Shown: positions 810 to 15,770 of the stretch, one piece after another
How the letters are laid out: every line of letters starts with the position of its first letter
How positions within the stretch are numbered: position 1 is the first letter of the stretch
Assembly (NCBI GenBank): GCA_017428565.1
Contig: JAFRQP010000039.1
Location: 1-55,087 of the forward strand
Length of the DNA: 55,087 nt
Direction of reading: 5' to 3'
Origin: Oscillospiraceae bacterium
GTDB lineage: Bacteria > Bacillota > Clostridia > Oscillospirales > Oscillospiraceae
The notes under the pieces: model-generated
What the model was told of the DNA's origin: nothing
What the model saw: the letters and a program-made list of their open reading frames with translations, nothing else
Database searches by the model: none
Position numbers and translations under genes: made by a program

Positions 810-1229
810 TTATGCTTTCGGCGGCATAACGGTCGCCTTGCCCTTGATCACAACGTCGCCGTTCTGATTGGTGCAGACCGTGTCAAGAATGGCGCGATTT
901 TTCTCGGGGATCAGTTCAGCCACCGTAGCCGTGGCCGTGATCGTATCGCCGATGGCAACGGGCTTGGTGAAGCGGAGCTCCTGCCCCATATAGATGGTGC
1001 CGGGGCCGGGCAGCAGCGTGCCGAGCACGGTGGAAATCAGGCCTGCCGACAGCATGCCGTGGGCGATCCGCTTGCCGAACATGCCTTTTTCAGCTTCGGT
1101 CTGGTTGACATGGGCGGGGTTGAAGTCGCCGCTGATGCCGGCGTACAGATACACGTCGGTTTCGGAAATGGTCTTGGTGAAAGAGGCGCTGTCGCCGATC
1201 TTCATTTCTCCGATGGTAATGCCTTTCAT
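810..1229 (-). CDS. MaoC-like (R)-specific enoyl-CoA hydratase
   Basis: A 139-residue single hot-dog-fold protein of the MaoC/PhaJ type, which hydrates trans-2-enoyl-CoA to (R)-3-hydroxyacyl-CoA in the cytosol. The hydratase signature is visible at about residues 30-60: YAGISGDFNPAHVN followed by GKRIAHGML, supplying the Asp and His expected for catalysis. The start at 1229 has AGGAGG seven bases upstream. It is transcribed away from the rest of the island, from a promoter (1290-1318) whose start region overlaps one of two identical dyads, so it is probably co-regulated with the rightward operon. It is the only hydratase-like gene in the cluster. A dehydratase working in the reverse direction is equally possible. 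Confidence 0.85.
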   Translation of the reverse strand: MKGITIGEMKIGDSASFTKTISETDVYLYAGISGDFNPAHVNQTEAEKGMFGKRIAHGMLSAGLISTVLGTLLPGPGTIYMGQELRFTKPVAIGDTITATATVAELIPEKNRAILDTVCTNQNGDVVIKGKATVMPPKA

Positions 1230-1266
1230 TTCAAAGCCTCCTGAATATCAGATTTGATCGTGAAAG

Positions 1267-1286
1267 ACATGAATAGCAGTTCATGT
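1267..1286. promoter_or_regulatory. Operator dyad, copy 1
   Basis: Inverted repeat ACATGAA-N6-TTCATGT. The same 20 bases recur exactly at 1417-1436 with 150 bp between equivalent positions. This copy overlaps the predicted transcription start of the MaoC gene, four bases from its -10 box. It is probably the binding site of the TetR regulator at 10381; that link is inferred. Confidence 0.75.
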
Positions 1287-1289
1287 AGA

Positions 1290-1318
1290 ATCATATCACG
1301 AGCCCTGTTTGCTGTCAA
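1290..1318 (-). promoter_or_regulatory. Promoter of the MaoC gene
   Basis: On the minus strand TTGACA (1318-1313), a 17-base spacer and TATGAT (1295-1290). This is a near-consensus vegetative promoter whose start falls in operator copy 1. Confidence 0.8.
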
Positions 1319-1378
1319 TGCCAAAAACTTATATGTAATTTTGTACAAACTGTCAAAACAATAATCCAGGCGTTTTCG

Positions 1379-1407
1379 TTGACATTGAAGATTCACATTG
1401 ATATATT
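1379..1407 (+). promoter_or_regulatory. Promoter of the rightward catabolic operon
   Basis: TTGACA (1379-1384), a 17-base spacer and TATATT (1402-1407). The start should lie near 1414, beside operator copy 2. Such a strong promoter in contact with a dyad suggests simple repression. Confidence 0.8.
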
Positions 1408-1416
1408 TATAGCAGA

Positions 1417-1436
1417 ACATGAATAGCAGTTCATGT
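1417..1436. promoter_or_regulatory. Operator dyad, copy 2
   Basis: Exact second copy of the 20-bp dyad at 1267-1286, located just downstream of the rightward -10 box. The two copies guard the two divergent promoters and could also allow looping across 150 bp. Confidence 0.75.
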
Positions 1437-1472
1437 GAATTATAATTCGTTTGCGGTAAGGAGGACAATCAT

Positions 1473-2498
1473 ATGAGTGATAAAGTTCCCGTAGGCATCG
1501 TAGGCATCGGCATCTATCTTCCGAAGAAGATCATGACGGCGAAGGAAATATCCGACGCCACCGGAGGCGTCTGGAGCGAGGACGCCGTAAAGAACAAACT
1601 GGGCATTATTCAGAAGTACGTTCCTTCCGACGAACCCTGCGACGGAACGCAGGAAATGGGCGCTCTGGCTGCGCTGGACTGCCTGAAGAACACGGGTATC
1701 GATCCGCTGGATATCGACGCGATCCTCTGCTTCGGCGAGGAATGGAAGGAGTATCCGCTCACCACCTCGGCCTGCTACATTCAGGATCGCATCGGTGCGA
1801 AGAACGCCTGGGGCATCGATGTGCAGAACCGTTGCTGCACGACCGTCTCCGCGATGAAGCTTGCCAAGGACATCCTGCTGGCTGACGACGAGGTCAATAC
1901 CATTCTGGTGGCCGGCGGATACCGCAACTGCGATTTCATCGACTTCACCGACAGCGGTGTTTCCTTCATGTTCAACCTCGCCGCGGGCGGCGGCGCGGTA
2001 ATCCTGCAGAAGGGCTATGAGAAGAACCAGCTTCTCGGCACGCATATCATGTCCGACGGCTCCGTTGTCCATACCTGCGGCTCGAAGGTCGGCGGTATCT
2101 CCGATCCCGTTACCGCGGAAAACGTCAAGGAATTCGGCATGCTCCGTCTGATGGACTCTCCGAAGATGAAGGGACTGCTCAACACGGTCTCGATGCCGAA
2201 CTGGTATCACTGCATCGACGAGGCGCTCCGCAAGTCCGGCAAAACGCGCGCGGATATCGGCTATCTCGACATCCTGCACATCAAGCGTTCCGGCCACCTC
2301 GGCATGCTCAGGGACCTTGGTCTCACCGAAGACCAGACGATCTATCTGGAAAACTACGGACACGTCGGCCAGGTCGACCAGCTCCTGTCCCTTAAGCTCG
2401 GACTTGAGGCGGGCAAGGTCAAGCCCGGTACCGTGGTCTGCATGATCGCGGCGGGCATTGGCTATACCTGGGCAGCCAACGTGATCCAATGGGGTTGA
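1473..2498 (+). CDS. KAS III / HMG-CoA-synthase-like condensing enzyme
   Basis: A 341-residue thiolase-fold protein of the FabH/HMG-CoA synthase superfamily. The nucleophile aligns with C121 in DVQNRCCTTVSA, which carries a second Cys at 122. The active-site His aligns with H269 in DILHIKRSGH. Where KAS III has Asn in its YGNTSAAS motif, this protein reads YGHVGQVD, so the Asn is replaced by His (H297). That argues against ordinary fatty-acid initiation and for a specialised acyl-CoA Claisen condensation or its reverse. RBS GTAAGGAGG lies just upstream of the ATG. It is the first gene of the rightward operon, followed four bases later by livH. The exact reaction is not known. Confidence 0.75.
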   Translation: MSDKVPVGIVGIGIYLPKKIMTAKEISDATGGVWSEDAVKNKLGIIQKYVPSDEPCDGTQEMGALAALDCLKNTGIDPLDIDAILCFGEEWKEYPLTTSACYIQDRIGAKNAWGIDVQNRCCTTVSAMKLAKDILLADDEVNTILVAGGYRNCDFIDFTDSGVSFMFNLAAGGGAVILQKGYEKNQLLGTHIMSDGSVVHTCGSKVGGISDPVTAENVKEFGMLRLMDSPKMKGLLNTVSMPNWYHCIDEALRKSGKTRADIGYLDILHIKRSGHLGMLRDLGLTEDQTIYLENYGHVGQVDQLLSLKLGLEAGKVKPGTVVCMIAAGIGYTWAANVIQWG

Positions 2499-2502
2499 TT
2501 TT

Positions 2503-3438
2503 TTGTTTATTTCTTTTCTCTCAACAATTTGCGGCTCGCTTCTGAGCATGTGCGTGACGGCATTGGCCGCCTTTGCCGTGACGATCATCTTCCGCACGTC
2601 CACGACGGCCAATTTCGCACAGGGGGCGATTTCTGCCTTCGGCTGCTATGTCGTCGCAGACCTGCTGAATAAGCATGGCATCCCGGTCTGGATCGGGGTG
2701 TTCGCCGGCGTGCTGGTCGGCGTAGTGATCGGTGTGTTTATCGATCTACTCGTCTTCAGACGCGGCCGCCATGTGAACGAGCTCGGCAAGCAGATCATCA
2801 CCATGGGCTTTGTATCGCTGTTCTTCGGAGGCATCCCACTCGTATTCGGTACGCCCGAGCGCATCCCCTTTGAGGCCTTTTACAACACGGTCAAGGCCAA
2901 GACTTCGCCGAACTTCGTCATCCCCGCGCTGGGCGGCGAGATCGTCATCACCAAGCACGCGGTCATCTGCCTGGGCATCACCGTCGTTGTGCTGGCGGTC
3001 CTGTTCCTGCTGCTGAAATACAGCAAATGGGGCCTCGGCGTCCGCGCGACGGCCTCGAGCGAGTTTACGGCGGAGCTCATGGGCATCGACACGCACGTCA
3101 TCACCGCGATCTCCTGGGCGTTGGCCTGCGGTTTGGGTGTTCTGGCGGCGGTCATGTACGCGGGCGGCGGTACGTCGATTTCCGCGGCTTTCATGACGAC
3201 GATCCAGGTCAACGCTTTTCTCGCCTGTATTCTCGGAGGCTTCTCTACCTTTTACGGGCCGGTGATCGGCGCTGTGCTGATCCCGCTGGCTGCAAGCTGC
3301 GTGGGCTTTTTGGCAAACTTCAAAGGCTTTTACGGGATCTCACGCTGGCAGATGGTCATTGTCTATGTCCTGCTTCTGATCGCGATCCTGATCAAGCCTG
3401 AAGGGCTGTTTGGCAAAAAGACACTCAAGAAGGTATGA
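2503..3438 (+). CDS. livH: Branched-chain-amino-acid-type ABC permease (LivH family)
   Basis: A 311-residue integral membrane protein with about eight hydrophobic segments and the LivH pattern: an early TANFAQGAISAFGCYV segment and a C-terminal FLACILGGFSTFYGPVIGAVLI loop that contacts the ATPase. It starts at a TTG with GGGG eight bases upstream, four bases after the previous stop. It should form the translocation pore with the LivM protein encoded next. The Liv name describes the family only. In this acyl-CoA context the substrate may be an aromatic or other carboxylate rather than an amino acid, as is known for several HAAT-family importers. Confidence 0.85.
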   Translation: MFISFLSTICGSLLSMCVTALAAFAVTIIFRTSTTANFAQGAISAFGCYVVADLLNKHGIPVWIGVFAGVLVGVVIGVFIDLLVFRRGRHVNELGKQIITMGFVSLFFGGIPLVFGTPERIPFEAFYNTVKAKTSPNFVIPALGGEIVITKHAVICLGITVVVLAVLFLLLKYSKWGLGVRATASSEFTAELMGIDTHVITAISWALACGLGVLAAVMYAGGGTSISAAFMTTIQVNAFLACILGGFSTFYGPVIGAVLIPLAASCVGFLANFKGFYGISRWQMVIVYVLLLIAILIKPEGLFGKKTLKKV

Positions 3439-3446
3439 GGTGTGCT

Positions 3447-4532
3447 ATGGATATCAAACAGGAATATCTCAGCGCCGCATACCCTGGGGGCGCAAAAAAG
3501 AATATCGGCTCAAACATCCGCGCAGTCTTTGCCAATCCCTTGGCGCAGATCGCGCTTGTCGGCGTCGTGCTTGCGCTCGTGCAGTTTCTGGCGCTCGGCG
3601 GCATGATCTCCTCGGCTTTTGCCTATGCGCTCGGGAATACGCTGATCTATGCGATTGTGGCGATCGGCTTTTGCCTGCTGCTCGGGTATTCAGGCCTGGC
3701 ATCGCTCGGAACGGCGGGCTTTATCGGTCTTGGTTCCTATGTCGCTTTTTATCTGATCGAGGGGATGGGCGCACCGTATTATGTGGCGCTGCTGGTGACA
3801 CTTGCGGTTTCGATCACGATCGGCGTGATCGTGGGCTTCATCTCGCTGAGGATAGAAGGCATCTATCTGGCAATCATGACGCTGGCGCTGGCAGAGATCA
3901 TCCGCAGCCTGCTCATGGTGCTCAAGGCGACGATCAAGATCAACATCAACAACATCGTGCTCTTTGGCGTCAACGTCAATGAAAAGGCTGTCTATCTGCT
4001 CATCACGGCAACCTTTGTGATCCTGATGGTACTGACTTCAAACCTCATCCGCAGCCCGGTCGGGCGCGCGATGCTGGCCATGAAGGACAGCACCTCGGCC
4101 TCCCAGGCGATGGGGATCAGCCTGATGAAGTATCGTCTGCTTGCCTTCGTCATCTCTACGGTCTATGCCGCTATGGGCGGACTGCTGTACATGATGTACG
4201 TGCGCAACATGACGACAGCCACCTCAACGCTGCTCACGCTGAGCACCTCGCTGAATATTCTCGGCGCGGTCATTATCGGCGGAGCAAAGTCGCTCTGGGG
4301 CACAACCTTAGGTACGTTTATCATTTACGGTCTTCAGTCCATGTTTCTCAGCAAAATCCGTTTCTTTGTCGATCACCCCGCCTTTATCACCATGATCACG
4401 GGACTTTTGATCATCCTTGTCGTGATGTTCTTCCCGGGCGGCTTTGCCCAGATGCTTGCAGCCTTCAGAGGTTGGCTGCGCAGGAAACGGATAGAAAGGA
4501 GGATCCGCGCGTATGTCGATGACAGGAACTGA
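3447..4532 (+). CDS. livM: Branched-chain-amino-acid-type ABC permease (LivM family)
   Basis: A 361-residue membrane protein with about ten hydrophobic segments. LivM features include GYSGLASLGTAGFIGLGSYV near residue 80 and LNILGAVIIGGAKSLWGTTLG in the C-terminal third. I chose the ATG at 3447, preceded by GAGGTG, over the in-frame ATG at 3435, whose ribosome site would be too close; the 3435 ATG overlaps the livH stop by four bases. The C-terminus is a basic tail (RRKRIERRIRAYVDD) and overlaps the next gene by 20 bases. It pairs with LivH to form the transmembrane channel. Confidence 0.85.
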   Translation: MDIKQEYLSAAYPGGAKKNIGSNIRAVFANPLAQIALVGVVLALVQFLALGGMISSAFAYALGNTLIYAIVAIGFCLLLGYSGLASLGTAGFIGLGSYVAFYLIEGMGAPYYVALLVTLAVSITIGVIVGFISLRIEGIYLAIMTLALAEIIRSLLMVLKATIKININNIVLFGVNVNEKAVYLLITATFVILMVLTSNLIRSPVGRAMLAMKDSTSASQAMGISLMKYRLLAFVISTVYAAMGGLLYMMYVRNMTTATSTLLTLSTSLNILGAVIIGGAKSLWGTTLGTFIIYGLQSMFLSKIRFFVDHPAFITMITGLLIILVVMFFPGGFAQMLAAFRGWLRRKRIERRIRAYVDDRN

Positions 4533-5883
4533 GCGGCGACTCCTGAAAAAAGCCAGACGGCTGAAGACCGAGATCGAAATGCTGACCGCTTCCCGAGATC
4601 TGAGGATCGAGCGGGAAACGGAAAAAACAGCAGCTCGCCGCGCGGAGCAGCTCCGTCAGGAAGGGCTGCGGGCGGCGGAGGAAAGCTTTGAAAGTTTAGG
4701 CGCCGACGAGATCCGCCGTGCGATCACAGAAAAACGTCTGCGCGAAGAGAACGAACGCTATGCCGCGCTCCGCAAGGAGATCCTCCTTTGCGGCTATCTG
4801 CTGAGCGACGAGGAAAACGAGGCGCTCGCCTCCGCGCACGAATCACATCTGGAGCGCATCCGTGAGAAGACGACCGCGGAGCTCAGCTCTCTGTCAAACC
4901 CGAGCGCCGGAAAGAAGCTCGAGCTTCCCGCTGTCGCGGAGGAGGGCGCGGCGCCGGATACGACGAAGCTCCGTGAGCGCTGCGACAGAAAAATCGAAAA
5001 TGCGAAAGAACGCCTGAGAAATGTCGAGCGGCGACTGGAAAGCAGCGGGGCATCGAACCGTCAGGCGGAATTGGAAGAAGGCATCATCCTTCGCATTCAG
5101 GATTTGAAAATGTACTTCGGCGGCGTTAAAGCCGTGGATGGGCTAAGCTTCGATGTACATGAGGGTGAGATCTTCGGCCTGATCGGTCCGAACGGCGCGG
5201 GCAAAACGACGGTCTTTAACTGTATCACGCAGTTCTACAAGCCCACCGGCGGTACGCTGCTGTTCCGCGGCAGAGAAAATGAAGTCGTAGATCTGACGAA
5301 GGAAAAAGTGCACGACGTCATCCTGCACGGAATCGTGAGGACCTTTCAGAACGTGGAGGTGGTCCCGGAGCTGACGGTTTTGGAAAACCTTCTGATTGCC
5401 GGACACCGCCAGTATTCTTCCGGGATCGCGGCCAGCGCCCTGCATCTGCCGAAGCTCCGGCGAGAGGAGGACGTGATCCGCTATAAAGCAGAGAAAGTTC
5501 TCTCATTCATGGGCCTGAGCGCCTATGCCGGCGCGTATGCTTTCGGCCTTCCCTACGGCATCCTCAAAAAGATCGAGATCGCCCGAACGCTGATGTGCTC
5601 GCCGCGGCTGATCATCCTTGACGAACCGGCCGCCGGTCTGAACGACACGGAAACGGCGGATCTCGCGCGGCTGATCCGCCGCATCCGCGAGGAGTACAGC
5701 TGCACGATCCTCCTCGTTGAGCACGACATGGGTCTCGTGATGGACGTGTGTGACAACATCTGCGCCATTTCCTTCGGAAAGCTTCTTGCTTTCGGTACAC
5801 CGGAGAAGATCCAGACAAACCGCGATGTGCAGCAGGCATATCTCGGCGTGGATGAGGAGGGCGAGAGCGATGGCACTGCTTGA
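4513..5883 (+). CDS. livG: LivG-type ABC ATPase with long N-terminal coiled-coil extension
   Basis: 456 residues, about 200 more than a normal LivG. Residues 1-190 are highly charged and helix-rich (many E, R, K, A and L) and look like a coiled coil; I recognise no known domain there. From about residue 191 a complete ATPase follows: Walker A GPNGAGKT at 225-232, Q-loop TFQNVEVVPELTV, signature LPYGILKKIEIA (degenerate, but LivG signatures often are), Walker B LIILDEPAAGLN and switch VEHDM. The start has AAAGGAGG nine bases upstream, and there is no internal frameshift, so the fusion appears genuine. It should power the importer together with LivF. The extension may dock a cytosolic partner or regulate the transporter. 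Confidence 0.85.
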   Translation: MSMTGTERRLLKKARRLKTEIEMLTASRDLRIERETEKTAARRAEQLRQEGLRAAEESFESLGADEIRRAITEKRLREENERYAALRKEILLCGYLLSDEENEALASAHESHLERIREKTTAELSSLSNPSAGKKLELPAVAEEGAAPDTTKLRERCDRKIENAKERLRNVERRLESSGASNRQAELEEGIILRIQDLKMYFGGVKAVDGLSFDVHEGEIFGLIGPNGAGKTTVFNCITQFYKPTGGTLLFRGRENEVVDLTKEKVHDVILHGIVRTFQNVEVVPELTVLENLLIAGHRQYSSGIAASALHLPKLRREEDVIRYKAEKVLSFMGLSAYAGAYAFGLPYGILKKIEIARTLMCSPRLIILDEPAAGLNDTETADLARLIRRIREEYSCTILLVEHDMGLVMDVCDNICAISFGKLLAFGTPEKIQTNRDVQQAYLGVDEEGESDGTA

Positions 5884-6589
5884 AATCAGAGACCTTAAGG
5901 TCAACTACGGGCCGATCCAGGCGATCCGGGGGATCGATCTCGACGTCGAAGAAGGCAGTATCGTTGCGCTTCTCGGAGCAAACGGCGCAGGAAAGACCAC
6001 TACGCTGCGCACCATCAGCGGCGTCATCAAACCGGGTGGCGGGAGTATTCACCTTGCCGGGCAAGAGATCTCCCATCTTCGTGCCTGTAAGATCGCTCGC
6101 ATGGGCATCAACATGTCGCCGGAAGGACGTCTGGTCTTCAGCGGTCTGACCGTGGAGGAAAACCTGCGTGCAGGAGCCTATTGCATTCGCTCGCGTACGG
6201 AGACGGAGAAAAACATGCGCCGTGTTCTGGCGCTGTTCCCGCGTCTGGAGGAGCGGCTGCGGCAGCAGGCCGGAACGCTCTCTGGAGGCGAACAGCAAAT
6301 GCTGGCGATCGCGCGGGCGCTGATGGCAAGCCCTAAACTGCTGATGCTGGACGAGCCGAGCCTTGGCCTTGCGCCGCTGGTGATCAAAGACATCTTCCGT
6401 ACACTGCAGGAGATCCGTGCCGAAGGCACAACGATCCTGATCGTGGAACAAAACGCTTTGGCCACACTGAAGATCGCAGACTACGGCTATGTCCTCGAGC
6501 TGGGTAAAATCAGTATGAAGGGGCCTGCGGACGAGCTGATCCACGACGAAAAGCTCATTGAGGCCTATCTTGGCAACAGGAAAACGTAA
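5870..6589 (+). CDS. livF: LivF-type ABC ATPase
   Basis: A 239-residue ATPase of normal LivF length. It has Walker A GANGAGKTTT, the LivF-typical GRLVFSGLTVEENL segment, signature LSGGEQQMLAIARAL, Walker B LLMLDEPSLGLAP and switch VEQNA. I chose the ATG at 5870 because GAGGAGG lies nine bases upstream and the protein then starts MALLEIRDLKVNYG, the family N-terminus; an earlier in-frame ATG at 5750 would read through the end of livG. It overlaps livG by 14 bases. It forms the second half of the importer's ATPase heterodimer. Confidence 0.9.
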   Translation: MALLEIRDLKVNYGPIQAIRGIDLDVEEGSIVALLGANGAGKTTTLRTISGVIKPGGGSIHLAGQEISHLRACKIARMGINMSPEGRLVFSGLTVEENLRAGAYCIRSRTETEKNMRRVLALFPRLEERLRQQAGTLSGGEQQMLAIARALMASPKLLMLDEPSLGLAPLVIKDIFRTLQEIRAEGTTILIVEQNALATLKIADYGYVLELGKISMKGPADELIHDEKLIEAYLGNRKT

Positions 6590-6640: not shown

Positions 6641-8083
6641 ATGAAAAAAGTTCTGGCACTTCTACTGGCTCTCGCGCTCTGCCTGTCTCTGGCCGCCTGC
6701 GGCGGAGGACTGACCAATGAGCAGCCCGCGACCCCGGCCGACAAGCCGGCGGATCAGCCGACACAGGCCGACACCCCCGCAGACGCTCCCGCGGACACCC
6801 CCGCAGACGCTCCCGCGGACACCCCCGCAGACCAGCCTGCTGAAGCGGGCGACGGCTACGCACCCTTTGTTCCCGTTCAGGGAGTGGACGACACGACGAT
6901 CCTTGTCGGCAACACGGCTGCCACGACAGGCGCTTTTGCCACGGTCGGCATTCCGTTCAACGCCGGCATGGAGGCCGCGTTCATGGCCTATAACCTCTCC
7001 GGAGGCTTTGACGGCCGGTCCATCCAGCTCATCCACTATGACGACGGCTTCGACGCCGCGCAGGGCCTGACCTACACGCAGACGCTTGTGGAGACCGATC
7101 ATGTCTTCGCCATTGTCGGCCACTTCGGCACCAACACCGTCGGCGCCACGCTCGACTACCTCAAGCAGATGGGTATCCCCATGGTCTATGCCGCCACCGG
7201 TATTGCGGAGCTCTATCAGGAGGGCGCGACCGGCAACGACAAGGTCATCTACCCTGTTCAGCCCATTTACAACTCCGAGGGCCGCGTGCTGCTCGCCCGC
7301 GCGCTCGCTCCCGTTGAGGGGGGCATGGGTCTCGGCGGCACCAAGATCGGCGTAATTTCCACCACGGACGACGCGGGCGTCGGCCTGCTCTACGGCGTGC
7401 AGAAGCAGAATGAGACGCTGGGCGTCGAGATCGTCTATCAGGAAGTCGACGCGGCGGCCACCGACTACTCCGCGGCTGTGAACGTGCTGAAGAACGCCGG
7501 CTGCGATGTGGTCATTGCCTGCATGAACCAGGCGCCGCTTGCGATCCTCATGTCCTCTATGCGCGACGCCAACTATAACGCCAACGTCGTGACCTCCTAC
7601 GTCAATGCCTCCGCGGTCACGCTGGGCGCTTTCGTGGAGAACGGCTCCGTGACGGAAGACCGCCGCGTGTATTGCACCGCCTGGCTCGACACCAGCACCG
7701 AGGAAGGCATGAACGGCTACCTTGAGTTCTACGCAGCCATGAGCGCCTGGGAGCTTGCCAACGGCGGCTCCGGCAACGACAACGCGCTGAACTCCTATGC
7801 GATGGCGGGCTACATCGCCGGCAGCCTGTTTGTCCAGGCACTGCAGGCCCTGCACGATCAGGGCCTCGAGCTCAACTGGGCCAACTTCAACGACGTGATG
7901 GAATCCACCGATTTCATGATCCCCATGGGCGGCGAGATTAACTACCACAACGGCGACCGTCTGGCTATCACTTCTCTGGCGCTGAACACCATCTCCCTCG
8001 AGCCGGGCGAGAGCGGCTACTATGAACTGCAGATCGTCAGCCCGATCATGAGCCTCGACGACGTGCTTGCAACGATCAAGTAA
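6641..8083 (+). CDS. Lipoprotein substrate-binding protein of the Liv-type importer
   Basis: A 480-residue periplasmic-binding-protein-like lipoprotein (Peripla_BP_6/LivJ family). A signal peptide with lipobox LAAC places the lipidated Cys at residue 20. A low-complexity Pro-Ala-Asp linker (about residues 28-66) holds the ligand-binding domain off the membrane. The domain starts near VDDTTILVGNTAATTGAFA and continues with two Rossmann-like lobes. Start chosen at 6641 (AAAGGAGG upstream); an ATG at 6614 lacks a good ribosome site. It captures the transported ligand for LivHMGF. Residues in the fold do not tell me the ligand. A stem-loop follows the stop codon. Confidence 0.88.
   Translation: MKKVLALLLALALCLSLAACGGGLTNEQPATPADKPADQPTQADTPADAPADTPADAPADTPADQPAEAGDGYAPFVPVQGVDDTTILVGNTAATTGAFATVGIPFNAGMEAAFMAYNLSGGFDGRSIQLIHYDDGFDAAQGLTYTQTLVETDHVFAIVGHFGTNTVGATLDYLKQMGIPMVYAATGIAELYQEGATGNDKVIYPVQPIYNSEGRVLLARALAPVEGGMGLGGTKIGVISTTDDAGVGLLYGVQKQNETLGVEIVYQEVDAAATDYSAAVNVLKNAGCDVVIACMNQAPLAILMSSMRDANYNANVVTSYVNASAVTLGAFVENGSVTEDRRVYCTAWLDTSTEEGMNGYLEFYAAMSAWELANGGSGNDNALNSYAMAGYIAGSLFVQALQALHDQGLELNWANFNDVMESTDFMIPMGGEINYHNGDRLAITSLALNTISLEPGESGYYELQIVSPIMSLDDVLATIK
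6770..6832 (+). repeat. 24-bp in-frame tandem repeat in the binding-protein linker
   Basis: Two exact 24-bp units (6770-6793 and 6794-6817) plus a 15-bp partial third, encoding DTPADAPA repeats. The repeat keeps frame, so copy-number change would alter only linker length. Confidence 0.85.
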
Positions 8084-8150: not shown

Positions 8151-9467
8151 ATGGATTATACGTCTAAAATCATCTCTCTGGAAAAGGCTCTGTCGCTTGT
8201 AAAAAGCGGCGATATCATCGTCACGGGCCTCGGCGCGGCCGAGGCGGGCCTGATCATGGAGAACATCCATACGCTCAACGGCAAAGTCAAGGACATCCGG
8301 ATCGTCAACTGCAACCCGTCTCATACCTGCGAGTTCTACAAGCCCGAATATGCGGAGAACTTCAGCGTGGACGGCTGGTTTTACGCGACGCCGCTGCGCA
8401 AGGCTCACGCGCAGGGCAACATGTCTTATATCCCGAACAATCTGCATTTTGCGGCTACCAAGTGGCTGTACCGCAACAAGCCCAATATTTTCTGCGCATC
8501 AGCTTCCATGCCGGACAAAAACGGCTTCATTTCTCTGTCTACCTCCAATACGTATGAGCGCCGCATGATGGAGGCCGCGGACATCACGATCCTGGAAATC
8601 AACCCGAATTTCCCCTTTGTCTACGGAGACATCGTGATCCACTATACAGACGTGGATTATCTTCTGGAAGCGGATTATCCGGTTCCCACGCTTCCCGACG
8701 TGCCCTTCAACGACAAGGACCGCGAGATCGGCCGCCTGATCAGCCAATACGTGCCGGACGGCGCCTGTCTGCAGCTTGGCATCGGCGGTATTCCCAACGC
8801 CGTGGCCGAGTACCTGAAGGAGAAGAACGATCTTGGCATCCACACGGAGCTGATCACCAGCGGCATGGCGGAGCTTGTCAAGATGGGCGTCGTCACCAAC
8901 AAGCGCAAGAACATCAACCGCGGGCAGATGGTCGCCACGATGATCCTCGGCAGCAAGGAGCTCTTTGAATTCTGCGATCACAACTCCGGCGTAGCGCTTT
9001 ATGACGGCGCATGGGTGAACGATCCCTATACCATTGCCCAGAACGACAATCAGATCTCGATCAACACGAGTCTGGAGGTCGATCTGACCGGCCAGTGCGC
9101 CAGCGAGTCGATCGGTTCGCGTCAGTTCTCCGGCACGGGCGGCCAGGCGGACACCGCCATCGGCGCGCAGATGTCCAAGGGCGGACGCTCGATCATCGCA
9201 CTCTACTCCACGGCCATGATCAAGGACAAGGCCACCGGCGAGCGCCACGAGGTCTCCAAGATCGTTCCGCAGCTCCAGACCGGCGCGGCTGTCAGCCTCT
9301 CCCGCAACGACGCGGATCTGATCATCACCGAGTACGGTGTGGCGGATCTGCGCGGCGCGACCATCAAGGAGCGCGTGGAGAGCTTGATTGCGATCGCGCA
9401 TCCGAAGTTCCGCGACGAGCTGTGGGATCGCGCGCTGGAATGCGGCATCATCGGCAAGAAGTGGTAA
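8151..9467 (+). CDS. Acetyl-CoA hydrolase/transferase family CoA-transferase
   Basis: A 438-residue protein of the 4-hydroxybutyrate / butyryl-CoA:acetate CoA-transferase family. It has the glycine motif QLGIGGIPNAVAEYL near residue 210, a following GIHTELITSGM that carries the conserved Glu expected to form the glutamyl-CoA intermediate, and GTGGQADTAIGAQMSKGGRSI further on. Start chosen at 8151 (GGAGGA seven bases upstream, MDYTSKI). It probably activates the imported acid at the expense of acetyl-CoA or another acyl-CoA without using ATP. A paralogue lies at 45990-47327 with different codon habits. Substrate cannot be read from the sequence. Confidence 0.85.
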   Translation: MDYTSKIISLEKALSLVKSGDIIVTGLGAAEAGLIMENIHTLNGKVKDIRIVNCNPSHTCEFYKPEYAENFSVDGWFYATPLRKAHAQGNMSYIPNNLHFAATKWLYRNKPNIFCASASMPDKNGFISLSTSNTYERRMMEAADITILEINPNFPFVYGDIVIHYTDVDYLLEADYPVPTLPDVPFNDKDREIGRLISQYVPDGACLQLGIGGIPNAVAEYLKEKNDLGIHTELITSGMAELVKMGVVTNKRKNINRGQMVATMILGSKELFEFCDHNSGVALYDGAWVNDPYTIAQNDNQISINTSLEVDLTGQCASESIGSRQFSGTGGQADTAIGAQMSKGGRSIIALYSTAMIKDKATGERHEVSKIVPQLQTGAAVSLSRNDADLIITEYGVADLRGATIKERVESLIAIAHPKFRDELWDRALECGIIGKKW

Positions 9468-9472
9468 ACGGC

Positions 9473-10288
9473 ATGGCGACCTTTGGCTTTGAAGGAAAGC
9501 AGGTCTACTACGAGACCTACGGAGAGGGCAAGCCGCTGCTTCTGCTCAACGGCATCATGATGTCCTGCGCGAGCTGGAAGGAGTTTATCGAGCCGCTGAG
9601 CGCGTTCAACCGACTGATCCTTGTGGACATGATGGATCAGGGGAAGACGGACAAGCTTTCGGAGTCCTACGACCATGCGGTGCAGATCCGGCTGGTCCAT
9701 GCGCTGCTGGAGCATCTGGGGATCGAGAAGCTCTGCATTGCCGGCATTTCCTACGGCAGTGAGATCGGGCTGGAATATGCCATCGAACACCCGGACCGGG
9801 TGGAGCGGCTTCTCCTCTTCAACGCCACGGCCGCGACCGGCCCCTGGCTGGACGATATCGGCAAGGCGTGGAATCTGGCGTCGTCCGATCCAATGCAGTA
9901 CTACTACACGGCGATCCCCGTGATCTATTCGCCCCGCTTCTATACGCAGAACAACGACTGGATGGAGCGGCGGCGAGGACTGCTGGGGCCTGTATTCGGC
10001 AACCGGGATTTTATCGAAGCCATGATCCGGCTGACCAACAGCTCGTCCAATTATGACGTGCGCGACCGGCTGGATCAGGTCCTGTGCCCGACGCTGATCG
10101 TCTCCTGCCGCCAGGATTATCTGACCCCTGCGGAGGAGCAGCAGTACCTCGCGGCCCACATCCGGGACAGCCATTACGTCATGATCGAAAACAGCGGCCA
10201 TGCCTCCATGTACGAGCAGCCGATGCTCTTCGCCAGTCTGATCGTCGGCTTTGCCAACGCCTCAAAGGACAGCTATCATATCGTCTGA
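9473..10288 (+). CDS. Alpha/beta hydrolase (first of two in the island)
   Basis: A 271-residue alpha/beta-hydrolase. Nucleophile elbow GISYGS, a late acid in SCRQDYLTP and the catalytic His in NSGHASM form the triad; NGIMMS after strand 3 gives the oxyanion hole. No signal peptide, so cytosolic. It could be a thioesterase, enol-lactonase or C-C bond hydrolase of the pathway. The start is uncertain: ATG 9473 sits five bases after the CoA-transferase stop with a weak ribosome site, and GTG 9461 overlaps that gene. Tight spacing indicates co-translation with the CoA-transferase. It is the last gene before the TetR promoter. Confidence 0.8.
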   Translation: MATFGFEGKQVYYETYGEGKPLLLLNGIMMSCASWKEFIEPLSAFNRLILVDMMDQGKTDKLSESYDHAVQIRLVHALLEHLGIEKLCIAGISYGSEIGLEYAIEHPDRVERLLLFNATAATGPWLDDIGKAWNLASSDPMQYYYTAIPVIYSPRFYTQNNDWMERRRGLLGPVFGNRDFIEAMIRLTNSSSNYDVRDRLDQVLCPTLIVSCRQDYLTPAEEQQYLAAHIRDSHYVMIENSGHASMYEQPMLFASLIVGFANASKDSYHIV

Positions 10289-10380: not shown

Positions 10381-11088
10381 GTGGACGAATTACTGAAAAT
10401 GCCTCAGACCGCCAAGGGAATGGAGACCCTGAACAATATCCTGTCTGCCGCAGCGCAGCTGATTTACGAAAAGGGTTACTACGGTGCGAATATCGCGGAC
10501 ATTACAAAGCTCGCGGGCGTGGCGACGGGGACCTTTTACGTGTATTTCAGCAGCAAGATAAGCCTGTACCGCTATCTCCTGCTACAGTTTGGGCACCAGA
10601 TCCGCAAGGAGATGTCCCAGAAGACGGCTGACTGCCGGACGCGGCGCGAGGCGGAGCGGGAAGGCCTGAAAGCCTGGCTGCAATATGTCCAGAAGCATCC
10701 CTATGTGTACAACATCATCTGGGAATCGCTCTATGTAGACCGCAATCTGTTCAAAGAGTACTACGAGACCTTCAGCAAAGCCTACTGCGCAGGCCTCCGC
10801 CGTGCTCAGGAAGACGGGGAGGTCAAGGATGTTGATTTGACGGTGCTGTCCTATATGCTGATGGGCATTTCCAACTTCGTCGGTCTGAAATACTGCCTTC
10901 TCGGCGACGGAAGCGCGGATCTGGACCAGGTTGTGGACGAGGCGATGCGCGTGCTGGACGGCGGCATGTTTACCGACGAAGCTCCGACAAGACAGGAGCG
11001 GGTTTCCAAACCGAAAAAAGATATGAACTTCCGCGTGGAAGTTGACTTTGGATTTCTCAACAACAGAGAACGCGAAGGAGATCAATAA
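10381..11088 (+). CDS. TetR/AcrR family transcriptional regulator
   Basis: A 235-residue TetR-type repressor. The N-terminal helix-turn-helix is clear at about residues 15-65 (ILSAAAQLIYEKGYYGANI, then GVATGTFYVYFSSK), followed by an all-helical ligand domain. After about residue 200 there is an unusual basic then hydrophobic tail (KPKKDMNFRVEVDFGFL). It starts at GTG with AGGACGGAG upstream. Being in the middle of the island, it is the obvious candidate to bind the paired dyads at 1267 and 1417 and to respond to an acyl-CoA or substrate. Its gene ends two bases before the second hydrolase starts, so the downstream genes share its transcript. Confidence 0.88.
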   Translation: MDELLKMPQTAKGMETLNNILSAAAQLIYEKGYYGANIADITKLAGVATGTFYVYFSSKISLYRYLLLQFGHQIRKEMSQKTADCRTRREAEREGLKAWLQYVQKHPYVYNIIWESLYVDRNLFKEYYETFSKAYCAGLRRAQEDGEVKDVDLTVLSYMLMGISNFVGLKYCLLGDGSADLDQVVDEAMRVLDGGMFTDEAPTRQERVSKPKKDMNFRVEVDFGFLNNREREGDQ

Positions 11089-11090
11089 GC

Positions 11091-12113
11091 ATGTTTTATG
11101 AAGTACAAAAGGTGGACACGCCCCGGCTGACGACCGCCTGTTACCATGCTGGACAGCCCGGCATGCCAAAGCTGCTGCTGATCCACGGCAACGCCTCCTC
11201 CGCAAAATTCTATCTGCCGCTGATGAAGCGGCTTGAGGATCGTTTTGAGTTGGTGGCTCTCGATCTGCGCGGCTTCGGCGACACCGAGCCCAAGCCCATC
11301 GACGCCAGACGCGGTATGCGCGATTTCTCCGACGACGTGGACGCTCTGGCGGAAACGCTCGGCTGGGATCGCTTCAGTCTGCTCGGCTGGTCCATGGGCG
11401 GAGGCGTCGCCATGCAGTATGCTATCGACCACAGCGAGAAGCTCGAAAGGCTGATCCTCGAAGCGCCGCTTTCTCCCTTCGGTTTCGGCGGCACCTATGA
11501 TGCGGACGGAAAGAAACTGCAGCCGGCCGGCCTGGCAAGCGGTGGCGGCTGCGCCAACGCGCAGCTCATCGCCTGCCTGCAAAGCGGCGAGCGCAGCTTC
11601 ATCGCGCAGACCATTGACGGCGTTTATGTCGCTCCGCCCTATCAGATCGCACCGGAGCTCAAGGAGATGTTCATCGACAGCGTCCTTTCTACGCGCGTCG
11701 GGGACGGCCTGTATCCCGGCGACAAGACCGCGGCGCCGGTCTGGCCCTTCTTTGCCGCGGGCGAAAACGGCGTCTGCAATACGATGGCCCCCAACTACTG
11801 CGACCTCTCGCCCCTTTCGGAGATCCCCAACAAGCCCCCGATCCTCTGGATCCGCGGCGCGTCGGATATCATGGTCTCCGACACGAGCCTGATGGATCTG
11901 GCATGGCTCGGCCAACTCGGTTATGTGCCCGGCTGGCCCGGCGCGGAGCTCTGCCCGCCGCAGCCCATGCTGCGCCAGACGCGCTATGTCCTGGATCGCT
12001 ATCAGGCAAAAGGCGGACGCTACAAGGAAGTCGTGATCGCCGGCGGACACGGCCCGATGCTGGACAACGAGGACGGCTTTGTTGCCGAGCTTCTGCAGTT
12101 TTTTGAAGAATAA
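11091..12113 (+). CDS. Alpha/beta hydrolase (second of two in the island)
   Basis: A 340-residue alpha/beta-hydrolase with HGNASSAKF oxyanion loop, nucleophile elbow GWSMGGG, acid in RGASDIMVSD and catalytic His in AGGHGPML. It carries a longer, Gly/Pro-rich cap (about residues 140-260) than the first hydrolase, so the two probably act on different intermediates. RBS GAAGGAG lies upstream of ATG 11091, and the gene is coupled to tetR. No export signal. Candidate roles are thioesterase, esterase or C-C hydrolase acting after CoA activation. I cannot narrow it further. Confidence 0.82.
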   Translation: MFYEVQKVDTPRLTTACYHAGQPGMPKLLLIHGNASSAKFYLPLMKRLEDRFELVALDLRGFGDTEPKPIDARRGMRDFSDDVDALAETLGWDRFSLLGWSMGGGVAMQYAIDHSEKLERLILEAPLSPFGFGGTYDADGKKLQPAGLASGGGCANAQLIACLQSGERSFIAQTIDGVYVAPPYQIAPELKEMFIDSVLSTRVGDGLYPGDKTAAPVWPFFAAGENGVCNTMAPNYCDLSPLSEIPNKPPILWIRGASDIMVSDTSLMDLAWLGQLGYVPGWPGAELCPPQPMLRQTRYVLDRYQAKGGRYKEVVIAGGHGPMLDNEDGFVAELLQFFEE

Positions 12114-12134
12114 GAAAAAGAAAGGCGATGCACC

Positions 12135-12611
12135 TTGAAGGCAGTTTACGCGGGGAGCTTTGACTGCTATACCAACGGGCATCACGACATCGTGCGCAAG
12201 GCGTGCCGTCTGTTCGACGAGGTTCATATCGTGATCGCGGTCAATTCGGCCAAAACACGGACCTATCCTGCCGAAGAGATGGCCGAGGCCATCCGGGCGG
12301 CACTCCGGCGCGAGGAGATCGAAAACTGTACCGTCGCGATTTACTGCGGTCTGGTTGCGGAGTACTGTCGGGAGCAGGAGATCGATTATTTTATCCGAGG
12401 TCTTCGCAACAATCTTGACTACAATTACGAGGAGAATGTGGCCAATGTCAACAAGCTTGTCATGCCGGACATGGACACGATCTATTTTCGCGCGGTAGCG
12501 CCGGCGATCTCCTCCTCGATGGTGCGCGAGCTGCACTCGTTCGGCAAGGACGTCTCTGCGTACGTCCCCGCCGAGGTGTGGGATTGCATCCAAGCTCAGA
12601 GAAACAACTAA
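12135..12611 (+). CDS. coaD: Phosphopantetheine adenylyltransferase (CoaD-like)
   Basis: 158 residues, the normal length for CoaD, which joins ATP and 4'-phosphopantetheine to dephospho-CoA. The nucleotidyltransferase motif GSFDCYTNGHHDI is at residues 7-19 (usual form GSFDPxTxGH), with RGLRNNLDYNYEENVANVN in the middle and ISSSMVREL near the end. It starts at TTG with AAAGG upstream; no in-frame ATG fits. Its position between the hydrolase and the acyl-CoA dehydrogenase suggests a pathway-associated copy boosting CoA supply, but it could be the only coaD of the genome. The sequence departs from the consensus (C for P at position 11), as expected for a divergent copy. Confidence 0.85.
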   Translation: MKAVYAGSFDCYTNGHHDIVRKACRLFDEVHIVIAVNSAKTRTYPAEEMAEAIRAALRREEIENCTVAIYCGLVAEYCREQEIDYFIRGLRNNLDYNYEENVANVNKLVMPDMDTIYFRAVAPAISSSMVRELHSFGKDVSAYVPAEVWDCIQAQRNN

Positions 12612-12771
12612 GTAAACGCTGGTCAAATGCCACTTCGGCGCCTTGCGGCCTTTTTCCGCCATGATTTTGTCTCAAAACCTTGAAATACACAAAGTATTCC
12701 TGCGGTTTTTCGCCTTCATCCCGGCGAAAAAATCCTCGCAATCCGCTTTCGTGGATTTAATCATCGTTTAC
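12612..12771. repeat. 160-nt foldback (MITE-like) element
   Basis: The whole stretch between the coaD stop codon and 12771 is one long imperfect inverted repeat. The arms begin GTAAACG and end CGTTTAC; the left arm (about 12612-12680) aligns with the complement of the right arm (about 12703-12771) over most of its length. The centre pairs as GAAATAC-N5-GTATTC. No protein is encoded. It looks like a small non-autonomous element and could also weaken read-through from coaD into the dehydrogenase gene. Confidence 0.65.
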
Positions 12772-12830
12772 AAAATTTTTTTTACCCCTGAAACTGAATG
12801 ACAATTCATATTTGATGAAGGAGAATAGCT

Positions 12831-13970
12831 ATGTTCAGACTGGATGAAGAGCATCTGGAGCTTCAGGCATCCTTTAAGGAATTTGCGGAAAACGAGATCA
12901 AGCCCCTCGCCAAGGAGATCGACGAGACCGAGCGCTTTCCGCTAGAGAGCGTGAAGAAGATGGCCGAAATGGGCATGATGGGCCTGCCTATCCCCGAGGA
13001 ATACGGCGGAAGCGGCATCGACCAGCTTGGCTACGTACTGGAGATCGAGGAACTGGCCAAGGTCTGCGCGACCACCGCGATCATCGTTTCGGCGCATACC
13101 TCGCTCTGCTGCTGGCCGATCCTTAAATTCGGCACGGAGGAACAGAAGCAGAAGTATCTTGTTCCGCTGGCCCGCGGCGAAAAGCTGGGCGCCTTCGCGC
13201 TCACCGAGCCGAGCGCCGGCACAGACGCATCCATGCAGAAATCCACGGCCGTTTTGGACGGCGACGCCTATGTGCTCAACGGAAGCAAGATCTTTATCAC
13301 CAACGCCGGCGCGGCTGACGTGTTTATCGTCTTCGCCATGACCGACAAGGAGCAGGGGACCCGCGGCATCTCCGCGTTCATCGTGGAGCGCGATATGCCC
13401 GGCTTCAGCATGTCCAAGCCCGAGAACAAGATGGGTCTGCGCGCCTCCTCCACCTGCGAGCTGATCTTCGACAACGTCCGTATCCCGAAGGAGAATCTGC
13501 TTGGCCAGGAAGGCAAGGGCTTCAAGATCGCCATGGCGACGCTGGACGGCGGACGTATCGGCGTGGCCGCTCAGGCGACCGGTATTGCGCAGGGCGCGAT
13601 CGATGAGGCAGTCAAGTACACCACCGAGCGTATTCAGTTCGGCCGCCGTATCTCTCAGTTCCAGAACACCCAGTTCACCCTGGCGGATATGCAGACCAAG
13701 ACCGACGCCGCGCGCCTGCTGGTCTGGCGTGCTGCCGCGGCCGAGCAGGACGGCCAGCCCTACACCGCTCCCGCCGCCATGGCAAAGCTTTTTGCCGCGG
13801 AGACGGCCTCTTACGTCACCAACCGCGCGGTGCAGCTCTTCGGCGGCTACGGCTACTCGAAGGATTACCCCGTGGAGCGCATGATGCGCGACGCGAAGGT
13901 CACGGAGATCTATGAGGGCACCAGCGAAGTCCAGAAAATGGTTATCTCCGGCTTCATGGGCGTGAAGTAA
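12831..13970 (+). CDS. Acyl-CoA dehydrogenase (butyryl-CoA-dehydrogenase-like)
   Basis: A 379-residue flavoprotein of the short-chain acyl-CoA dehydrogenase family, normal length. FAD and substrate motifs are present: [12 protein letters not shown] near residue 125, [41 protein letters not shown], and [22 protein letters not shown]. The catalytic base is Glu362 in IYEGTSEVQ, the position used by short-chain enzymes. RBS GAAGGAG precedes the ATG. etfB and etfA follow immediately, so this is an Etf-coupled dehydrogenase that either oxidises the acyl-CoA substrate or reduces an enoyl-CoA with electron bifurcation, as in clostridial Bcd/EtfAB. Substrate unknown. Confidence 0.9.
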
Positions 13971-13974
13971 GGGT

Positions 13975-14760
13975 ATGAAAATACTGGTATTTGTCAAACA
14001 GGTTCCTGATACCGACGATGTGCAGCTTGATCCCAAAACCGGTAATCTGCGCCGCGACGGCGTCAAGAGCATGATGAACCCCATGGACGCCAACGCGATC
14101 GAGGCAGCGCTCCAACTCAAGGAGAAGCACGGAGGCAGCGTAGTTGTCGTGACCATGGGCCTGCCGATGGCGACCGAGGTGCAGAAAAAAGCTCTCGGCA
14201 TGGGCTGTGACGAGGCTTTTCTGCTCTCCGACCGGCCTTTTGGCGGCGCGGACACGCTGGCGACCTCCTATACGCTGGCCAAGGCGGCAGAGAAGATCGG
14301 AGACTTTGATCTGCTGCTGTTCGGCCGTCTGGCAACCGACGGCGACACGGCGCAGACCGGCCCTGCGGTCGCGGCACAGCTCGGCATCCCGCAGATCAGT
14401 CTGGCAAGCTCCATCGAGGTTAGGGACGGCTGGGTCTACTGCGATCGGGATCTCGGCGACCGTGTACAGCGTGTGCGGGCCAAGCTGCCTGCCGTGGTCA
14501 CGGTCAACGGCGGGATCAACAAGCCGCGTTACGCTACGCCCATCAATATCATGCGCGCGCAGAAAAAGCCGCGCACGACCTGGACAGCGGCGGATCTCGG
14601 CTGCGACATGACGAAGATCGGCACGCCCGGCTCGCCCTCCTCGACCAAGAAGGTCTTTGAGCCGGAAAAGCGCAATACCGACACGCAGTATCTGACCGGC
14701 AGCCCGGACGAAATGGCAAAAGCGCTGGCTGATCTGCTCGAAGCAGAGCATCTTCTGTGA
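13975..14760 (+). CDS. etfB: Electron transfer flavoprotein, beta subunit
   Basis: A 261-residue EtfB starting MKILVFVKQVPDTDDVQLDP, with the nucleotide-binding segment GRLATDGDTAQTGP near residue 120 and PAVVTVNGGINKPRYATP. Length and N-terminus match clostridial EtfB partners of butyryl-CoA dehydrogenase. The ATG at 13975 is four bases after the dehydrogenase stop codon. It forms a heterodimer with EtfA and passes electrons between the dehydrogenase and ferredoxin/NAD. Whether it bifurcates cannot be settled by eye; operon partnership with a single Acd is consistent with it. Confidence 0.9.
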   Translation: MKILVFVKQVPDTDDVQLDPKTGNLRRDGVKSMMNPMDANAIEAALQLKEKHGGSVVVVTMGLPMATEVQKKALGMGCDEAFLLSDRPFGGADTLATSYTLAKAAEKIGDFDLLLFGRLATDGDTAQTGPAVAAQLGIPQISLASSIEVRDGWVYCDRDLGDRVQRVRAKLPAVVTVNGGINKPRYATPINIMRAQKKPRTTWTAADLGCDMTKIGTPGSPSSTKKVFEPEKRNTDTQYLTGSPDEMAKALADLLEAEHLL

Positions 14761-14774
14761 GAGGCTGTGAAGAC

Positions 14775-15770
14775 ATGAAATCAGATTATAAAGGGATTTG
14801 GGTCTTTGCCGAACAGGAGAACGGCAAGCTGCACCAGACGGTATTGGAGCTCCTGGCAAAATCCAAAGAGCTGCAGAAACACAACGGGGAGAAGATCACG
14901 GCCGTTCTGCTCGGCGCGGACGTCGCGGCTCTGGCGGATACGCTCTTCGCTTACGGCGCTGATGCGGTTTTGCTGGCGGAGTCTGAGGCGCTGCGCGAAT
15001 ACAGCGCGAGGCCTTACCAGAAGGTGCTGACAGAGCTTGCGGAGAAGTACAAGCCCTCGATCATCCTCTACGGCGCGACGCCGCTGGGACGCGATCTCGC
15101 ACCGCGTATGATGGTGGCTCTGGATACGGGCTTGACCGCGGATGCGATTGACCTTGGCTTCGACGAAGACGGCGTGTTCTACCAGACAACGCCGGGCTAT
15201 GGCGGGAAGATCCTGGCGCACATCGTGATTCTGGAGCGCAGACCTCAGATGGCGACGGTCCACCCGCAGATCTGCGAACCGCTCGAACCGGTGAATGGCG
15301 CGAAGGGCGAGCTGCTCGTCGAAAACCTGGCGGTGGAAGGAGACGCGGAATACGAGGTGCTGGAGACGCTGCCGGCCGAGAAGAGCGGAGAATCGCTGAC
15401 TGAGGCCAAAGTCGTCGTAGCCGGAGGAAGAGGCGTTAAGAACGAAGACGACCTCACCATGCTGCGCGAACTGGCGGAGCTTTTGGGCGGGCAGATCGCC
15501 TCGTCCAGACCGCTGGTGGACAACGGTATGCTGCCGCATGACCGACAGATCGGACAGAGCGGCACGACAGTCACACCGCAGCTCATGTTCAACATTGCGA
15601 TCTCCGGATCTGTGCAATATCAACTCGGCATGCAGAAGGCCAAATGCATCGTCGCGATCAATCAGTCGGAGGACGCGCCGATCTATGACATCGCGCACAT
15701 CGGTGCAGTCGTGGATTACAAGAAACTCATTCCAGCCTTGATTGCGGAAATCAAAGCAAGAAGACAGTAA
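14775..15770 (+). CDS. etfA: Electron transfer flavoprotein, alpha subunit
   Basis: A 331-residue EtfA. The C-terminal FAD domain has the family pattern in order: GGRGVKNEDDLTMLRELAELLGG, ASSRPLVDNGMLP, QIGQSGTTVTPQLMFNIAISGSVQY and CIVAINQSEDAPIYDIAHIG. Start placed at ATG 14775 with GAGAGG ten bases upstream; a GTG at 14757 overlaps etfB. It is the last gene of the catabolic island, and everything after it belongs to the mobilizable element. Together with EtfB and the upstream dehydrogenase it makes the redox arm of the pathway. Confidence 0.9.
   Translation: MKSDYKGIWVFAEQENGKLHQTVLELLAKSKELQKHNGEKITAVLLGADVAALADTLFAYGADAVLLAESEALREYSARPYQKVLTELAEKYKPSIILYGATPLGRDLAPRMMVALDTGLTADAIDLGFDEDGVFYQTTPGYGGKILAHIVILERRPQMATVHPQICEPLEPVNGAKGELLVENLAVEGDAEYEVLETLPAEKSGESLTEAKVVVAGGRGVKNEDDLTMLRELAELLGGQIASSRPLVDNGMLPHDRQIGQSGTTVTPQLMFNIAISGSVQYQLGMQKAKCIVAINQSEDAPIYDIAHIGAVVDYKKLIPALIAEIKARRQ

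Follow-up and report, generated by a model that had tools for sequence, protein, structure and literature searches.

The decarboxylating ketoacyl synthases KAS I and KAS II possess a Cys-His-His arrangement, and p-coumarate is taken up by Liv-type importers in other bacteria. Mobilizable elements of the Tn4451/Tn6104 type carry TnpV, mobilisation genes and a large serine recombinase, according to two reports (PMC3158075, PMC5704250). Here we analysed a gene cluster within a 55,087-nucleotide stretch from an Oscillospiraceae bacterium (GenBank: GCA_017428565.1; contig: JAFRQP010000039.1). This window (1-55,087) is a complete contig (C26) of a 2.69 Mb metagenome-assembled genome (MAG) with a completeness of 83.7%. 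The cluster encodes a KAS III-like enzyme, a Liv-type importer, a CoA-transferase, two alpha/beta hydrolases, a TetR-family regulator and further enzymes of acyl-CoA metabolism (Table 1), and had been described in an earlier note as a self-contained acyl-CoA catabolic island with importer, regulator and CoA supply. All genes listed there were found at the positions given, and their families were checked in Pfam and NCBIfam.

At the level of sequence, comparison with other genomes established the gene set, its co-conservation, a common inverted repeat and a tie between the family of the KAS III-like enzyme and a short-chain polyhydroxyalkanoate (PHA) depolymerase. Our favoured reading, which we regard as quite possible rather than probable, is a TetR-controlled regulon by which exogenous (R)-3-hydroxyacid esters or short oligomers, for example breakdown products of poly-3-hydroxybutyrate (PHB), are taken up and fermented. 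Among the substrates considered in the earlier note, a hydroxy acid is favoured by the genomic links, in the form of an ester or oligomer; aromatic and branched acids are less favoured.

The tie to the depolymerase was revealed by a reverse test starting independently of the operon, in which an even draw of 398 genomes from the phylum of the window (Bacillota, judged by the named relatives described below) was searched for NF050089, the NCBIfam family of intracellular short-chain-length PHA depolymerases. Members were detected in 20 genomes, and 18 of these also encode a protein of NF005308 (PRK06840; family name 3-oxoacyl-ACP synthase), the family to which the KAS III-like protein of the window belongs. 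The two genes lie within 7 kb of each other in 15 of the 18. The hypergeometric p for this co-occurrence is about 1e-18 by genome and about 1e-7 by family (NF005308 is present in 10 of the 12 families with a depolymerase), the latter assuming 139 families, a number taken from labels. PHA synthase (TIGR01836, E up to 1e-20) was detected in only one of the 18 co-carriers, so the depolymerase does not seem to serve the cells' own granules; the same model also matched genome G485 and the control Caulobacter.

Alignment of the window's hydrolase 2 with 37 of 59 candidates showed that all 38 proteins match NF050089 at 1e-20 or better, with the next family matching 28 of 38. The curated cut-off of 300 bits was passed by eight of ten operon hydrolases scanned singly; the proteins of loci L077 (277 bits) and L107 (122 bits) stayed below it. 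Over 274 residues, hydrolase 2 of Acholeplasma granularum resembles a PHB depolymerase of solved structure, 8ynv (E 9e-70). Ser101, Asp259 and His320 of the window's hydrolase 2 are invariant in the 38 sequences and probably form its hydrolase triad. Among the loci compared for the window type and the depolymerase type of hydrolase 2, one type occurs in 13 loci, the other in 54 and both together in none, a mutual exclusion that fits a replacement in the same slot. Four genomes are present twice in this comparison and in the residue counts of the KAS III-like enzyme below (L032/L054, L033/L062, L034/L072, L036/L073).

Named relatives of the cluster were collected by scanning genomes with a seven-sequence alignment, keeping the best 80 of 249. 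Among these best 80 are Clostridia, Erysipelotrichaceae, Acholeplasma, Clostridium bovifaecis, Proteiniclasticum ruminis, Papillibacter cinnamivorans and an Atopobiaceae MAG. Counts refer to the 50 loci with at least 5 kb on each side, 30 of the 80 being omitted for a shorter flank. Neighbours were assigned with profiles from the window's relatives (E up to 1e-8), by which ordinary ABC ATPases or short-chain dehydrogenases/reductases (SDRs) can count as LivG/LivF or SDR, and the importer was counted as present if at least three of LivHMGF were found. Within 10 kb of the KAS gene, the importer was detected in 49 loci, the CoA-transferase in 45, TetR in 43, hydrolase 1 in 41, hydrolase 2 in 37, MaoC in 31 and the acyl-CoA dehydrogenase (ACAD) in 22. 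Since the sequence retrieved for each locus stops 10 kb beyond the KAS gene, downstream ACAD-EtfBA and CoaD genes are undercounted, and the single CoaD detected among the 50 loci is no fair count. An SDR and a thiolase were each present in 34 of the 50 loci and are both missing from the window, so the description as self-contained is not supported.

In the phylum draw, NF005308 was found above its cut-off in 38 of the 398 genomes, own genome included. Forty stretches were obtained from 36 of the 37 other genomes (G389 was left out), one of them (L158) without a called KAS gene. Six of the remaining 39 were omitted for a flank below 5 kb on one side; of the 33 counted loci, 26 have the importer and 31 a CoA-transferase or CoA-ligase. 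In the window's own family, 6 of 200 genomes (own included) carry NF005308 above cut-off, and three listed genomes of the same genus are without it. On haloarchaeal plasmids, three loci (L118, L119, L120) have a Liv importer immediately adjacent to the gene of a 34-35% identical enzyme; in L118 and L119, but not in L120, genes for MaoC, an alpha/beta hydrolase and an AMP-binding protein lie at a distance of about 9-12 kb. The conserved gene company in relatives excludes chance clustering, and the core genes (KAS, importer, CoA-transferase, hydrolase 1, TetR), which the earlier note had expected to be co-conserved, do occur together in other genomes. A short protein with an MCP signalling domain was found in locus L156 (2792-3610); its protein cluster is present in seven phylum-draw loci (one member scanned).

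The promoter-like and operator-like sites ahead of the cluster genes are listed in Table 1. Between positions 700 and 16600, 16 promoter-like sites were found, compared to 6.3 in shuffles. With up to 3 mismatches allowed, 0.01 matches to the inverted repeat would be expected by chance in the window; the corresponding chance figure of 0.02 for the weaker site ahead of ACAD-EtfBA is flattering, because the pattern was drawn after seeing the site. The LivK, CoA-transferase and TetR gaps showed no further copy in a k-mer comparison. The 476 intergenic stretches of the 80 named relatives contain the core TGAA-N6-TTCA 80 times, against an average of 5.3 (standard deviation 2.5, maximum 11) over 40 dinucleotide shuffles. 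Four control palindromes with matching base composition and spacing gave 2 to 5 occurrences each, and TGAA/TTCA half-sites at spacings of 4, 5, 7 and 8 gave 3, 18, 10 and 7. In 46 of the 80 loci, a site precedes cluster genes by no more than 450 bases; as the loci are related, their sites are not independent. The TetR protein would bind these repeats, and the cluster is apparently co-regulated.

The KAS III-like protein clears the NF005308 cut-off (Table 1) and fails the FabH family test (TIGR00747: 99 bits, cut-off 292). Residues were counted in 130 sequences (129 hits and the window), excluding 11 of 140 hits that scored 194 bits or less, and were paired with FabH by alignment. The FabH Cys position is Cys in 128 of 130 sequences and the His position is His in 124, whereas the Asn position of the FabH Cys-His-Asn triad is occupied by His in all 130; Asp302 is invariant. 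The resulting Cys-His-His residues do not tell condensation from cleavage. As a guess, the enzyme might transfer an acyl group via its Cys to CoA, in a thiolytic cleavage of a 3-oxoacyl chain or of an ester bond. That NF005308 enzymes put the KAS III fold to a new, catabolic use is a considerably bolder proposal, which we think improbable: CoA-dependent thiolytic cleavage of hydroxyacyl oligo-esters (or their 3-oxo forms) would save one activation per bond and mark a polyester-scavenging route that extends over Bacillota, Mycoplasmatota and Actinomycetota, haloarchaea having related enzymes next to Liv importers. The Atopobiaceae KAS copy falls within Bacillota in a tree of 46 sequences, where its closest partner is a Lachnospiraceae copy (98/90), a placement that a misbinned contig would also give. 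Papillibacter cinnamivorans has a second KAS cluster (L037, same genome as L036), 51% identical, with its own importer, CoA-transferase, hydrolase, MaoC and ACAD.

No open-access paper in PMC contains the label PRK06840, and in this part of the literature, hence a weak negative, no description of the cluster, its enzyme or its pathway was found. As far as the searched literature shows, the gene combination is new and the KAS III-like family has no tested role.

Table 1. Genes, regulatory sites and flanking mobile-element genes of the window
Feature	Position	Strand	Evidence
MaoC-type enoyl-CoA hydratase, probably (R)-specific	810..1229	-	PF01575 83.7 bits; nearest solved structure 5cpg
Operator-like inverted repeat 1	1267..1286		just beyond -10 of predicted MaoC promoter
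Promoter-like TTGACA-17-TATGAT, MaoC	1318-1290	-	11/12 matches
Promoter-like site, KAS-importer genes	1379..1407	+	11/12 matches
Operator-like inverted repeat 2, identical 20-base copy	1417..1436		just beyond -10 of KAS promoter
KAS III-like enzyme, NF005308/PRK06840, predicted C121-H269-H297	1473..2498	+	440.9 bits, curated cut-off 315
LivH-type permease	2503..3438	+	PF02653
LivM-type permease	3435..4532	+	PF02653
LivG-type ATPase, N-terminal extension of about 190 residues	4513..5883	+	LivG model covers residues 192-445
LivF-type ATPase	5849..6589	+	PF00005
LivK substrate-binding lipoprotein	6641..8083	+	PF13458
CoA-transferase, 4-hydroxybutyrate/butyrate type	8151..9467	+	PF13336; nearest structure 3eh7, E 3.4e-96
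Alpha/beta hydrolase 1, esterase type	9467..10288	+	PF00561; nearest structure 4q3l (MGS-M2), E 1.1e-78
TetR-family regulator	10381..11088	+	PF00440
Alpha/beta hydrolase 2, divergent relative of intracellular short-chain PHA depolymerase	11091..12113	+	best family NF050089, below cut-off
CoaD, pantetheine-phosphate adenylyltransferase	12135..12611	+	TIGR01510 142.6 bits, cut-off 103.3
Weaker operator-like site before ACAD-EtfBA	12795..12808		pattern comparison
ACAD, nearest to acryloyl-CoA reductase family	12831..13970	+	NF042972 548 bits, below cut-off
EtfB	13975..14760	+	PF01012
EtfA	14757..15770	+	PF01012, PF00766
TnpV, transposon protein (flank)	2..406	+	PF14198 145 bits
MobC (17088-17678) and relaxase (17464-19170) (flank)	17088..19170	+	PF05713, PF03432
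Large serine recombinase, overlapping frames 19796-20806 and 20790-21446 (flank)	19796..21446	+	PF00239 and PF07508 on first piece; second by eye

The MaoC gene is read leftward out of a 243-base gap (1230-1472). The genes for KAS, LivHMGFK, CoA-transferase, hydrolase 1, TetR, hydrolase 2 and CoaD are all read rightward and overlap or are separated by less than 100 bases, and ACAD-EtfB-EtfA start 219 bases beyond CoaD. The divergent MaoC gene and the gap ahead of ACAD rule out a single operon and imply at least two transcription units. No matches were obtained when the window was scanned for Rfam families and tRNAs. Similar CoaD proteins were found in the two nearest relatives L038 and L039 (90% and 76% identical) and, at 34%, in L076 and L109; CoaD was dropped as a proven core part, and the comparison did not bear out CoA supply as a core component of the island.

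Family assignments of the gene products allow the following route to be proposed. LivK-HMGF would import the ester or oligomer, the two alpha/beta hydrolases would split its ester bonds and the CoA-transferase would form the hydroxyacyl-CoA. MaoC, whose nearest solved structure is an (R)-specific enoyl-CoA hydratase (E 2.4e-35), would dehydrate this to the enoyl-CoA, which ACAD and EtfBA would reduce to the saturated acyl-CoA, to be released as the acid via the CoA-transferase. In relatives with SDR and thiolase, part of the substrate would be oxidised to acetyl-CoA. The ACAD is not a member of the acryloyl-CoA reductase AcrC family (cut-off 640 bits) and is conserved in the same order in the nearest relatives G596 and G597 (99% and 91%). 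The CoA-transferase is not a TIGR03948 member (257 bits, cut-off 675). Thiolases of the relatives match PhaA/BktB models, below the cut-offs where shown. An additional CoA-transferase subunit and a transporter for short-chain fatty acids accompany the cluster in Clostridium bovifaecis.

Several results weigh against the favoured reading. The window's own hydrolase 2 reaches only 112 bits with NF050089 (residues 15-133 only), and NF005308 is absent from 4 of the 8 genomes of the family and 7 of the 10 of the phylum in which proteins of its type were found. No hydrolase 2 of either type was found in the three haloarchaeal loci. An NF050089 depolymerase is missing from 19 of the 37 other NF005308 genomes of the phylum draw, 8 of the 18 genomes carrying both belong to one family, the two genes lie apart in 3 of the 18, and the importer is missing from 7 of the 33 counted loci. 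No thiolase match was found in the window's incomplete MAG, whose best SDR is 36% identical, and for the SDR members the best matches are FabG models, a result that gives no hint of hydroxybutyrate. Given the divergence of hydrolase 2 and the failure to find the oxidative pair, the window may have a variant chemistry; without a thiolase match in the MAG, only the reductive branch (MaoC, ACAD-EtfBA) is visible. The thiolase search also gave no match in G597 and G598, and matches in 7 of its 10 genomes, of which G133 and G599 look like one genome.

A specific tie between the window type of hydrolase 2 and NF005308 was considered and is weak: of the genomes with this type (own included), 4 of 8 in the family and 3 of 10 in the phylum also have NF005308. 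Among 13 stretches fetched around window-type hydrolases, two more (L222, L224) have a CoA-transferase and a distant KAS (104-108 bits) adjoining; the others are too short or lack these neighbours. Part of hydrolase 1 resembles PcaD models, at scores below cut-off, and nothing was found on its nearest structure, MGS-M2, in the open-access PMC literature. A recurrent protein near KAS and CoA-transferase was observed in the phylum-draw loci L151, L152, L156, L162 and L166; the three scanned (L152, L156, L166) are lipase-class-2-like with a signal-like start. The solved relatives of one of these proteins include PhaZ7 (E about 0.004), ranking behind ordinary lipases.

The alternative that survives best, though we consider it unlikely, is a generic cluster for the uptake and beta-oxidation, or conversion to butyrate, of mixed short-chain hydroxy and branched fatty acids, in which the depolymerase link would reflect general ester use. 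All enzyme classes are broad, and the importers seem to be exchanged between loci, LivH identities to the window being either about 28-55% or 65-95% across loci and out of step with the KAS gene. Four phylum-draw loci without a Liv importer (L161, L166, L176, L184) have a member of a sodium/solute symporter family near KAS, and the short-chain fatty acid transporter of the Clostridium bovifaecis locus would fit as well. An argument against it is that a single KAS family and a single depolymerase family are linked in both directions. The GHFGT and QPIY..EG blocks of LivK, conserved in 18 aligned of 75 sequences (the window and 17 of 74 candidates), also speak against it and suggest a common ligand class.

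Liv importers of the relatives mostly have a short (about 260-330 residues) or a long (about 470-540 residues) form of LivG; the N-terminal extension of the window's LivG (4513-5090) is charged. None of the five Liv proteins passed a listed curated model (for the two ATPases, among the best 25 models). In L054 (same genome as L032; about 11000-21011), two Liv importers of different type lie in tandem behind a single KAS gene, while other loci use one type.

Distinctly less probable is the degradation of aromatic or phenylpropanoid side chains, with Liv import of cinnamate-like acids, activation by the CoA-transferase and chain shortening by ACAD, MaoC and KAS. The two clusters of Papillibacter cinnamivorans, the PcaD-like part of hydrolase 1 and the p-coumarate importers of other bacteria would fit such a role. 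The strong tie of KAS to a short-chain PHA depolymerase argues against it, as does the presence of the cluster in Acholeplasma and Erysipelotrichaceae, which to our knowledge are not known for the use of aromatics, and no ring-attacking enzyme was found among the annotated recurrent neighbour families, which cover part of all neighbours. Least probable of all, if narrowly, is that KAS acts as an NphT7-like acetoacetyl-CoA synthase making butyrate from malonyl-CoA or a similar dicarboxylic donor, for while its fold, its Cys-His-His residues, the butyrate-type enzymes (MaoC, ACAD, Etf, CoA-transferase) and the lack of a thiolase match in the incomplete genome are compatible with this, thiolase near KAS in most named loci means that acetoacetyl-CoA could form without KAS, and the hydrolases and the importer are left unexplained.

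The earlier note had also seen the cluster as flanked by mobile-element genes and foreign in codon choice, and both observations hold. TnpV lies on the left, and MobC/relaxase and the serine recombinase on the right; the recombinase, in two overlapping frames, looks broken or misassembled, and LexA at 15953 is not an obviously mobile gene. The Karlin distance between cluster and backbone is 0.319, compared to 0.060-0.155 for contiguous 15-gene backbone blocks, and GC3 is 0.757 in the cluster versus 0.873 in the window after 23 kb and 0.848 in stretches of four other contigs. Genes for the codon test were chosen by a GC-by-codon-position rule; the cluster set (15) lacks hydrolase 1 and includes one spurious 79-residue open reading frame. 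The sister genome G596 shares 724-16568 with the window (with short breaks) and then jumps to the recombinase end from 21255, so that the genes at 16.6-21.2 kb were lost there or gained here; a clean recent insertion of the island was rejected on this comparison. UBA1701 (G597) shares 808-15748 in other surroundings, with two serine-recombinase-like open reading frames (by eye) on one side. Nucleotide identity to G596 is 83-86% for the cluster and 80% for one backbone gene over about half its length, which does not settle transfer. A search of plasmid DNA gave two partial matches. As the window is the whole contig of an incomplete MAG, the left end of any island is outside the view.

The favoured reading of a hydroxyacid-ester regulon places the NF005308 enzyme family into a specific setting. 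It suggests that many of the gut and sediment anaerobes seemingly without PHA synthesis of their own scavenge PHA breakdown products or similar hydroxyacid esters, which would feed the formation of butyrate and acetate. Compared with the described parts of Tn4451/Tn6104-type elements, the window likewise contains TnpV, MobC/relaxase and a large serine recombinase; it differs in its catabolic cargo, in a left end outside the contig and in a recombinase split into two frames. The importer has the five-part architecture of Liv/HAAT importers for branched-chain amino acids and aromatic acids, whereas its proteins pass none of the curated models listed for them. As in PHB mobilisation (phaZ, phaJ-type, phaB-type, phaA-type), many relatives have depolymerase-, hydratase-, reductase- and thiolase-type genes grouped in one place. 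In contrast to PHB mobilisation, the relatives' clusters add a Liv importer, a CoA-transferase, the NF005308 enzyme and a TetR-type repeat, and PHA synthase was found in 1 of the 18 co-carriers; in the window, the depolymerase-like enzyme is moreover divergent and the genome has no thiolase match. With FabH/KAS III and NphT7-type enzymes, the window's KAS shares the common fold family and the catalytic Cys position, and it differs from FabH/KAS III in the His at the Asn position of the triad and in the location of its gene within a catabolic cluster.

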